A stretch of DNA of 64,000 bases from NCBI RefSeq assembly GCF_014873755.1, contig NZ_JADBEG010000001.1, forward strand, positions 6,236,501-6,300,500, written 5' to 3'. The position numbers and the translations under genes were made by a program. Of the stretch, positions 20,754-22,651 are shown piece after piece. This stretch comes from Amycolatopsis lexingtonensis (GTDB lineage: Bacteria; Actinomycetota; Actinomycetes; Mycobacteriales; Pseudonocardiaceae). Each line of letters starts with the position of its first letter. Position 1 is the first letter of the stretch. Under the pieces are notes generated by a model that had not been told where the DNA came from, made no database searches, and worked only from the letters and a program-made list of their open reading frames with translations.

Positions 20754-21257
20754 TCATTCGTGCGGCACCGGCCGGCCCGGCTGCTCCCCGCCCCGAGTTT
20801 CCCCGTACGAGCGCTTCGGCACCATCACCTTCCGCCGGAAGGTGCACACGATCAGGCCGTCCTGCTTGTAACCGCGCGTCTCGACGTACACGACGCCGCG
20901 GTCGTCCTTCGACTTCGACGGCGTCTTGTCGAGCACCTCGGTCTCGCCGTAGATGGTGTCGCCGTGGAACGTCGGCTTGACGTGCTTGAGGGACTCGACC
21001 TCGAGGTTCGCGATGGCCTTGCCGGAGACGTCGGGCACGGACATGCCCAGCAGCAGCGAGTAGACGTAGTTCCCCACCACGACGTTCTTGCCGAAGTCGG
21101 TCGTCTCTTCGGCGTAGTGCGCGTCCAGGTGCAGCGGGTGGTGGTTCATGGTGATCAGGCAGAACAGGTGGTCGTCGTATTCGGTGACCGTTTTGCCCGG
21201 CCAGTGCTTGTAGACCGCACCGACCTCGAACTCCTCGTAGTACCGACCGAACTGCAC
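20754..21257 (-). CDS. MaoC-like hot-dog dehydratase
   Basis: This 167-residue single hot-dog domain includes LFCLITMNHHPLHLDAHYAE, the hydratase-2 motif region, and a central NYVYSLLLGM helix. MaoC-like proteins hydrate trans-2-enoyl-CoA; the usual D/H pair is not fully evident, so the reaction is uncertain. GTG 21257 has GGAG 7 bases upstream. It leads the operon with the DUF2332 gene and is divergent from corA. Confidence 0.8.
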   Translation of the reverse strand: MQFGRYYEEFEVGAVYKHWPGKTVTEYDDHLFCLITMNHHPLHLDAHYAEETTDFGKNVVVGNYVYSLLLGMSVPDVSGKAIANLEVESLKHVKPTFHGDTIYGETEVLDKTPSKSKDDRGVVYVETRGYKQDGLIVCTFRRKVMVPKRSYGETRGGEQPGRPVPHE

Positions 21258-21380
21258 TCGTCATCTCCTGTCCCGCGTAACACCGCGTGAGGCGGGTACG
21301 ACACGCATCCGTAGTGAGGAGTACCCTCAACCATCGGTTCTCGCGCGTCAACGCGAGCCCCACCACTCTGCACCCGGCCC

Positions 21381-21522
21381 GAAGGAGGTGAGGAACCCGA
21401 TGAGCAGTGGCGATAGTCCGCTCCCTAGTAGTCCCAGCGTTCCCACCTCACGGGTCGTCTCCAGGTAGGCCTTCTCACACCCCCCGGGAACGCTGGTGTC
21501 GCCGGGCGGACGCGGTCCGCCC
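21381..21522 (+). promoter_or_regulatory. corA leader with candidate attenuation structure
   Basis: The leader holds, in order: an almost ideal ribosome binding site (GAAGGAGGTGAGG at 21381-21393), a 22-codon ORF (21400-21468), an 11-bp perfect stem pairing CCAGCGTTCCC (21434-21444, inside the ORF) with GGGAACGCTGG (21486-21496), and a compact GC hairpin GGGCGGAC/GTCCGCCC (21504-21522). CACCTC at 21444-21449 can also pair with GAGGTG of the ribosome binding site. A ribosome stalled in the ORF would keep the 11-bp stem open. It does not clearly match the M-box riboswitch, though I cannot exclude one. Confidence 0.55.
21400..21468 (+). CDS. Proline-rich 22-residue leader peptide upstream of corA
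   Basis: ATG 21400 to TAG 21468 encodes a 22-residue peptide containing SPLPSSPSVPTSR, with four prolines at positions 7, 9, 12 and 15. It has the strongest ribosome binding site in the window. Codons such as AGT, GAT, CCT and TCA are unusual for this GC-rich genome. In Salmonella the mgtA leader peptide MgtL is also proline-rich and couples Mg2+ and proline supply to transporter expression; an analogous role here is inference. It is in a different frame from corA, which starts 100 bases later. Confidence 0.6.
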   Translation: MSSGDSPLPSSPSVPTSRVVSR

Positions 21523-21568
21523 CTGGTCAGTCGTCTCGCACGACCACGCACGACGCCCAGGAGATCCC

Positions 21569-22651
21569 ATGCCTGCCATTCCCTCGCTCGGCGGCCTTCG
21601 CGGCCGCGGCAACAAGGGCGCTGTCCCCGTGCGGCCGGTCCCGGTGCCGCTGTCCGCGTACGTCGTCGACTGCGCGGTCTACGTCGCCGGCGAACGCCTG
21701 CCCGGCCGCTGGACCCACACCGAAGCCATCAAAGAGGTCCGGAAGCGGCACGAGGGGTTCGTCTGGATCGGGCTGCACGAGCCGGACGCCGAGCAGATCC
21801 AGGGCGTCGCCGACACGTTCGGGCTGCACGAGCTGGCGGTCGAGGACGCGCTCGAAGCGCATCAGCGGCCGAAGCTCGAGCGCTACGACGACACGCTGTT
21901 CCTCGTCGTGAAAACCGTCCGGTACGTCGAACACGAATCACCCACAACGGCGAACGAGATCGTCGAAACCGGCGAGCTCATGGTGTTCCTCGGCCGCGAC
22001 TTCGTCATCACCGTGCGGCACGGGAACCACTCGGGACTGGCGCGGCTGCGCCGGGAGCTGGACGACGACCCCGAGCGCCTGCAGCTCGGCCCGGCCGCGG
22101 TCGTGCACGCGATCGCCGACCACGTCGTCGACCACTACCTCGACGTCACGGGCCGGATCGAGAACGACATCGACGTCATGGAGGCGCAGGTCTTCGCGCC
22201 CCGGTCGCAGATCAGCGCCGAGCAGATCTACCTGATGAAGCGGGAGGTCCTCGAGCTGCGGCGCGCGGTGATGCCGCTCGCGACGCCGGTGCAGCGCCTG
22301 GCCGAGGGCTACACGCGGCTGGTGCCGGACGAGGTCCGCTCCTACTTCCGCGACGTCGCCGACCACCTCACGACCGTGTCCGAACGGGTGGCGGCGTTCG
22401 ACGAACTGCTGTCCACTCTGGTCGACGCGACGGTCGCGAAGATCTCCTTGCAGCAGAACACCGACATGCGCAAGATCACGTCGTGGGCGGCGATCATCAC
22501 CGTGCCGACGATGATCGCGGGCATCTACGGGATGAACTTCGACTACCTGCCCGAGCTGCACTGGAAGTTCGGGTACCCGCTGGTGATCACCGTGATCCTC
22601 GGCATCTGCCTGTTGCTGTACCGAATATTCCGGAAGAACGGCTGGCTCTAG
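21569..22651 (+). CDS. corA: CorA-family Mg2+/Co2+ channel
   Basis: The 360-residue protein has a large cytoplasmic N-terminal domain and two C-terminal transmembrane helices. The signature YGMNF lies at the end of the first helix, near residue 315, followed by the short periplasmic loop DYLPELHWKFGYP. It functions as a pentameric divalent-cation channel, mainly for Mg2+. ATG 21569 has AGGAG upstream; the frame is open further 5' but that extension overlaps the leader and lacks homologous character. A short membrane protein gene follows at 22693. Confidence 0.93.
   Translation: MPAIPSLGGLRGRGNKGAVPVRPVPVPLSAYVVDCAVYVAGERLPGRWTHTEAIKEVRKRHEGFVWIGLHEPDAEQIQGVADTFGLHELAVEDALEAHQRPKLERYDDTLFLVVKTVRYVEHESPTTANEIVETGELMVFLGRDFVITVRHGNHSGLARLRRELDDDPERLQLGPAAVVHAIADHVVDHYLDVTGRIENDIDVMEAQVFAPRSQISAEQIYLMKREVLELRRAVMPLATPVQRLAEGYTRLVPDEVRSYFRDVADHLTTVSERVAAFDELLSTLVDATVAKISLQQNTDMRKITSWAAIITVPTMIAGIYGMNFDYLPELHWKFGYPLVITVILGICLLLYRIFRKNGWL

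Follow-up and report, generated by a model that had tools for sequence, protein, structure and literature searches.

The leader of the magnesium transporter gene corA in Amycolatopsis lexingtonensis contains a 22-codon upstream open reading frame (uORF) that is conserved together with its Shine-Dalgarno (SD) sequence throughout the genus and appears to be related to the uORF2 peptides of mycobacterial M-box leaders. It lies in a 64,000-nucleotide stretch of contig NZ_JADBEG010000001.1 (the window, to which all positions below refer) of the 10.7-Mb host genome. The leader is intergenic, flanked by corA and a divergent MaoC-domain gene (Pfam), and its features are all on the plus strand. With moderate confidence, the uORF is best explained as a translated, cis-acting leader peptide that would form part of a Mg2+-responsive attenuator tuning corA in the manner of mgtL and corL; we infer its translation, its response to Mg2+, and the direction and output of that response. 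More tentatively, the module may be an ancient Mg2+-sensing nascent-peptide cassette of Mycobacteriales (typically M-S-x-x-D-S-P), which in Pseudonocardiaceae would control corA by itself and in other lineages would provide a second lock downstream of M-boxes.

The SD sequence of the uORF (AAGGAGGTGAGG; 21382–21393) is conserved in relatives and contains a ten-base match to the anti-SD (AAGGAGGTGA; 21382–21391) that is present as a single copy in the window (chance expectation, 0.04), which bears out the original prediction of a near-perfect ribosome binding site (RBS), the best in the window. The uORF itself (21400–21468), supported by its conservation and a serine that is kept through a codon switch, encodes MSSGDSPLPSSPSVPTSRVVSR, with the predicted four prolines at residues 7, 9, 12, and 15. 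Its core codons Asp-Ser-Pro-Leu-Pro (GAT AGT CCG CTC CCT; 21412–21426) stand out by conservation and codon bias. The stop codon is located 100 nt upstream of corA (21569–22651), which encodes a Mg2+ transporter of 360 amino acids (Pfam CorA PF01544, 210 bits).

The leader also contains the perfect 11-bp stem that had been predicted, formed by CCAGCGTTCCC (21434–21444) within the uORF and GGGAACGCTGG (21486–21496) downstream of it. The original prediction of a single attenuator-like stem nevertheless overlooked a second, putatively competing stem that involves the SD sequence of the uORF. Region 2 (21434–21454, codons 12–19) can pair via 21439–21454 with region 1, which comprises the SD sequence and spacer (21378–21396; stem 1:2), or via 21434–21444 with region 3, the 3′ arm of the 11-bp stem (21486–21496; stem 2:3); both assignments draw on the swap tests described below. 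An 11-bp stem alone is not rare: when 142-nt stretches of the window were drawn at random, 38 of 1500 held a perfect inverted repeat of at least 11 bp, and the idea of an unusual overall stability was rejected, with the 200-nt leader no more stable than its shuffles (z −0.39). The leader rises above chance because it is conserved in all 80 genomes of the same genus, not by its stem or stability alone.

In each of these 80 genomes, which were recovered by a DNA search, the uORF begins with a [GS]DSPL motif and is followed by corA at a distance of 56–121 nt from the stop codon by one count and 65–121 nt by another rule for the corA start. The DNA from the SD sequence to codon 11 is nearly invariant among members of the genus, and GGAGGTGAGG (21384–21393) is invariant in 30 aligned genus members and nearly so in 53 members of the family. 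The conserved part of the peptide comprises residues 1–9 (MSSGDSPLP), with their acidic residue and prolines. The proline pattern that had been expected to be conserved holds for P7 (80 of 80 genomes) and P9 (78) but not for P12 (41) and P15 (57).

The conservation extends to the family and order. A profile of leader sequences (R1) has matches in 158 of the 390 Pseudonocardiaceae genomes, and corA was recognised at 38 of 40 matched regions fetched from outside the genus. A broader profile, R2, built exclusively from 34 corA-leader sequences, matches 289 of the 390 genomes and 40 of the 46 genera at E-values up to 0.01, which are rough, per-genome values whose weakest matches were not inspected singly; distant members of the family have uORFs such as MSSADSALPCSTNRIPAG. 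In 296 sampled genomes of the class, matches outside the order stayed at chance level (best E 6.5e-4). A pattern scan of a collection covering 84,980 species gave at least 80 loci; those listed are labelled as genera of Mycobacteriales except one metagenome-assembled genome (L242), which is labelled only as Actinomycetes and has corA downstream. For 19 of the 39 loci inspected for ORFs, corA lies no more than 600 bases away. The remaining 20 comprise one whose corA-like start runs into masked letters (L291) and 19 loci in Mycobacterium, Mycolicibacter, Mycolicibacterium, Nocardia, Rhodococcus, and Tsukamurella. Two of the findings that the original prediction had named as speaking against it, the lack of a conserved ORF or stem in related genomes and an M-box match explaining the region, were looked for, and neither came true.

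Some lineages carry variants of the module. In five Prauserella-like loci (L118, L120, L124, L245, and L272), DDSPL, DDSPP, or GDNPL is followed by GTASSRR, and the spacer between uORF and corA is much longer (148–224 nt), possibly containing an extra element. In two members of the window's genus (L075 and L077), the uORF is expanded midway by an in-frame insertion of some 18 codons that are rich in Ala and Pro.

The pattern of substitutions was analysed in 121 of 126 corA-context loci, excluding those without a recognised corA (L116 and L117), a uORF (L139), or a corA start (L132 and L138). At codon 2, AGY and TCC replace each other without altering the serine (L031 and L127), and variability is highest at third codon positions (mean minor fractions of 0.159, 0.181, and 0.291 for the three positions in 113 of the 121 leaders, representing 26 distinct sequences). 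Codon use is atypical, as had been predicted: in the 121 uORFs, AGT accounts for 56% of the serine codons and GAT for 84% of the aspartate codons, compared with 0.7% and 5%, respectively, in the neighbouring corA genes, counts that come from related and hence non-independent sequences; GAT, AGT, and CCT are all rare codons in corA. Among the 34 DSPL-type members of 53 dereplicated leaders, identity declines from 94% in residues 1–9 to 59% in residues 10–15 and 17% from residue 16 to the end. Judging from these patterns, the uORF is under both coding and RNA constraint, as would be expected if the peptide and slow codons were important at its beginning and nothing but RNA pairing toward its end.

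The RNA constraint was assessed by swap tests, in which the partners of a region are exchanged between genomes and the native pairing is compared with the shuffles. The regions were defined as SD sequence plus spacer (1), the ORF from codon 11 (2), and the sequence after the stop codon (3), with codons 1–11 (N) as a control. In the corA set (117 loci after removal of L118, L120, L123, and L124, whose uORFs are odd or misread, dereplicated to 53), stem 1:2 was reached by none of 2000 shuffles and stem 2:3 by 15, and the control pairings 1:3, N:3, and N:2 gave no signal (742, 1255, and 1964 of 2000). Pairing with the corA RBS was matched by 19 of 2000 shuffles for the uORF end, 7 for region 3, and 1762 for region 2. 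The same pair of stems emerges among uORFs located behind M-boxes (45 loci, of which L157, L203, and L204 have no uORF under the pattern used; the remaining 42 were dereplicated to 33), with 12 of 2000 shuffles for 1:2, 2 for 2:3, and 1961, 556, and 1938 for the controls 1:3, N:3, and N:2. When shuffles were confined to groups, stem 1:2 of the corA leaders was reached by none of 5000 shuffles and stem 2:3 of the M-box uORFs by 106, although the swap tests leave some effect of relatedness. With these caveats, region 2 appears to co-vary with two alternative partners, the SD region of the uORF and the RNA past its stop codon; in corA leaders, support is steadier for stem 1:2, the one that sequesters the SD sequence, and that for stem 2:3 carries a caveat that is taken up below.

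Outside Pseudonocardiaceae, the module is linked to M-boxes. Within the order, R2 also matches genomes of Mycobacteriaceae, often several times per genome, and in one Mycobacterium-type genus it matches 37 of 78 genomes at E-values up to 0.001 (best, 5.9e-9). Representative M-box-linked uORFs start with MSSSDSPDRSP, MSPGDSPYP, or MSSGDSPSRY. An M-box (RF00380) is located immediately 5′ of the uORF at 43 of 44 distinct loci found with R2 (14 of 14, 19 of 20, and 11 of 11 in three sets; L155, a repeat of L173, and six sources that had been fetched by their M-box were excluded), and the sequence of the 44th (L199) ends 84 bases upstream. In one genome (G429), three M-boxes match one to one with three uORFs. 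The pattern that was used to define the M-box uORFs demanded Asp, Glu, or Asn two positions before Pro, which makes counts of acidic residues and prolines among them selection-biased. Seventeen named records were chosen from the 80 loci listed by the pattern scan (Nocardia, Rhodococcus, Tsukamurella, Mycolicibacter, Mycolicibacterium, and M. lepromatosis; some repeat other loci). In 16 of them, an M-box reaches the gathering score, including one that is truncated where its contig ends. The 17th, from Nocardia vaccinii (L222, 1566–1733, minus strand), has a degraded M-box in the same place (26.6 bits; cut-off, 44).

Further observations concern the M-box loci themselves. The uORF behind the degraded M-box of N. 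vaccinii keeps a DSPYP motif, and this locus may represent a transition between uORFs linked to an M-box and those that stand alone. At four loci, the M-box precedes an Nramp-family transporter (L236, Pfam, 255.9 bits; L208, L209, and L206, by inspection) with an unusual GDNDAG motif, which is perhaps a Mg2+-type Nramp. In L163/L220, L261 (Rhodococcus), and L195, two M-boxes in opposite orientations lie within a few hundred bases of each other, forming divergent leaders.

The window, by contrast, lacks an M-box, in line with the original prediction. No Rfam family matches it at gathering score, nor is there any match up to an E-value of 5 within 21250–21650, and no M-box was found in the rest of the host genome or, at gathering score, in any of 20 corA loci tested. 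M-boxes are present in 2 of 60 genomes of the window's genus, a set that includes the host. There is no room for an M-box here because only about 126 bases separate the likely start of the MaoC-domain gene (21257) from the SD sequence, whereas the aptamer has 169 bases.

Behind the M-boxes of Mycobacterium tuberculosis pe20 and rv1535, uORF2 is expressed (PMC12810186). D'Halluin and colleagues (2026; PMC12810186) called uORF2 mycobacteria-specific, considered its role unclear, and suggested a regulatory or structural peptide; they described a universally conserved proline, at position 7 in most of the peptides, which is also the position of P7 in the window and in 103 of the 121 corA leaders. 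The module of the window resembles the uORF2 family (Rv1805A, Rv1535A, and Rv0115A) in its strong SD sequence, its length, its N-terminus with Pro 7, the Mg2+-related genes downstream, and the same pair of putatively competing stems, and it differs in the absence of an M-box, the bacterial family, and the target, corA. Most members of the uORF2 family are located behind an M-box, unlike the window's uORF, but Rv0115A is also M-box-free (PMC12810186). Given also the matches of R2, which was built from corA leaders alone, to mycobacterial uORFs, the module can be assigned to the Rv1805A/Rv1535A uORF2 family, with an SD sequence and ORF start that appear to be homologous. The available part of PMC12810186 gives an anti-SD upstream of uORF2 rather than stems 1:2 and 2:3 within it. 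Literature searches found no paper that ties uORF2 to corA or to non-mycobacterial genera and, among open-licence PMC papers, no description of an actinobacterial corA leader.

The parallel with Salmonella mgtL drawn by the original prediction holds in that a uORF precedes a Mg2+ transporter gene and carries acidic and proline residues early on, but that prediction missed the kinship with the mycobacterial M-box uORFs. In the mgtA and corA leaders of enterobacteria, the uORF is part of a stem in which its SD sequence is sequestered and which competes with another fold, Rho is involved, and low Mg2+ impedes elongation on the uORF, which increases transporter expression (PMC11552253). The mgtL leader of Salmonella and Escherichia coli mgtA has competing folds such as those predicted for the window leader, but it belongs to a different phylum, and its EPDP motif, which causes ribosome drop-off at low Mg2+, has two acidic residues instead of a single Asp (PMC11282234); for the window leader, Rho and a response to Mg2+ are presumed from this analogy. 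The corL leader of the same species likewise has a uORF before corA, and its stem that sequesters the SD sequence of the uORF and its alternative fold resemble those predicted here, but the conserved N-terminal region of CorL is reported to contain a single proline, and a three-way junction is present in the leader of E. coli (PMC11552253). The mgtQ ORF of Salmonella mgtC-mgtB is also tiny, relies on destabilising Asp/Glu codons, and combines mutually exclusive stems with a Mg2+ transporter as output, but it is intergenic, has eight codons, and acts on the translation of mgtB (PMC8092293). The similarity of the window leader to the enterobacterial mgtL and corL leaders is probably convergent; the sequences are too short to align.

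By analogy with these systems, ribosomes would slow or drop off at low Mg2+ when they encounter the early Asp and Pro residues and rare codons of the uORF (codons 5–9), and the position of the ribosome would select between stems 1:2 and 2:3. Mg2+-sensitive elongation over codons 5–9 is proposed because of the parallels with mgtL and mgtQ and because 115 of the 121 corA uORFs have an acidic residue among the first nine positions and a proline among the first ten. The choice of stem would set the output of corA, most likely via Rho-dependent termination and less likely via the corA RBS, and poor translation of the uORF at low Mg2+ would switch corA on, as in the case of mgtL and corL. In leaders with an M-box, the uORF would serve as a second lock, with the aptamer gating initiation and the peptide gating elongation.

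Rho-dependent termination is the likelier output because no intrinsic terminator was found in 21200–21700, because a stretch with an excess of C over G (21417–21486) is a candidate Rho loading region, and because the predicted accessibility of the corA RBS changes little. The C-over-G signal is weak, with a difference of 0.257 that is reached by 0.45% of the 70-nt windows on the plus strand. The idea that the position of the ribosome directly exposes the corA RBS was modelled by masking the leader for ribosomes at initiation, at codons 9 and 15, and at the stop codon and was rejected: the mean opening energy shifts by at most about 0.6 kcal/mol in 51 leaders (L075 and L176 left out).

Besides this small shift at the corA RBS, several observations weigh against a Mg2+-responsive attenuator of this design and its spread through the order. 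The uORF of the window has a single acidic residue, none of its prolines are adjacent, P7 is lost in divergent genera (DSA), and 101 of the 390 family genomes have no match to R2. All six M-boxes from outside Mycobacteriaceae, of which the window's genus contributes three, are followed by an SD sequence and a short ORF, but five of the six ORFs have neither a DSP motif nor a near match (the sole DSP-like one is MSISDRPQPALPLASH), so the peptide behind these M-boxes has drifted or is unrelated. In mycobacteria, expression of uORF2-lacZ is strong, and the main termination site is located upstream of uORF2 (PMC12810186). The stems are also affected. Under within-group shuffling of the long regions, the signal of stem 2:3 in the corA leaders is lost (817 of 5000), and that of stem 1:2 in the M-box uORFs is reduced to 426 of 5000. 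Shorter regions, which were picked after this failure, restore stem 2:3 in the corA leaders (0 of 5000 overall; 1 by helix and 2 by energy within groups) and give 295 (longest helix) and 9 (energy) of 5000 for stem 1:2 within groups. In an alignment of the 53 sequences, which was not anchored on the stems, RNAalifold recovered one weak helix of five pairs between the SD sequence and region 2, in another register and with no changes on both sides, and did not recover stem 2:3.

A conserved translated leader and RNA switch might instead respond to a different signal, such as proline or tRNA charging, EF-P or TrmD, pH, or translation rate. Such a response would agree with the conserved prolines and the rare Ser and Asp codons, and the promoter of the M-box-independent homologue Rv0115A is linked to PhoP and pH (PMC12810186). 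It is nevertheless unlikely, given that the module accompanies corA or an M-box in the loci checked and that its prolines are non-adjacent and become few in divergent genera.

It is improbable that the uORF encodes a trans-acting small protein, for instance a regulator or subunit of CorA or PE20/PPE31, an idea raised in PMC12810186. Although the N-terminus is highly conserved and uORF2 strongly expressed (PMC12810186), identity is low from residue 16 onwards, the conservation at the codon level and the RNA pairing suggest action in cis, and the proteins encoded downstream are unrelated (Pfam identifies CorA and Nramp, and inspection indicates a PPE-like protein and small ORFs). Rv1805A co-expressed with pe20-ppe31 had no visible effect on biofilms (PMC12810186).

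Simple translational coupling, where a strong SD sequence and a short ORF load ribosomes that keep the leader open and sense nothing, is slightly less probable still. It would agree with the very strong SD sequence, the short distance between the uORF stop and corA, and the better-than-swapped pairing of the uORF end and region 3 with the corA RBS, but it leaves the fixed DSPLP residues, the rare codons, and the association with M-boxes unexplained. A constraint on untranslated DNA, such as a promoter or operator of corA or the divergent MaoC-domain gene, is very improbable: the region is intergenic, conserved nearly letter for letter, and preceded by a further conserved block, but the Ser codon switches, the excess of third-position changes, and the same motif behind M-boxes contradict it.

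The remaining features of the leader concern its 3′ part and the region upstream of the SD sequence. As had been predicted, a compact GC hairpin precedes corA (21504–21522; 8 bp, loop GCG, no U tract). A TCTCC motif next to the uORF stop (21458–21462) can pair with the corA RBS (GGAGA; 21560–21564) in the minimum free energy fold, and the swap test agrees, making it a weak candidate for the pairing that takes the form CTCCTGG:CCAGGAG between uORF end and corA RBS in some relatives. A conserved block (GAGTACCCTCRACCATYGGT...CGTCAACGCGA; 21318–21360) located 5′ of the SD sequence in most aligned members of the genus may represent a shared promoter region of corA and the MaoC-domain gene; no sigma-70-type promoter was found in 21200–21700.

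The module joins two matters that are not linked in the papers found, the uORF of mycobacterial M-box leaders and an ORF in the corA leader of actinobacteria. If the proposed reading is correct, uORF2 would not be specific to mycobacteria and not mainly a source of a protein product, but a portable cassette for the control of Mg2+ genes, and the uORF2 peptides of M. tuberculosis would gain a cis-acting role. Ribosome-based sensing would then have evolved for Mg2+ transporter genes in Enterobacteria as well as in Actinobacteria, and the role of Rv1805A-type peptides becomes testable in soil bacteria.
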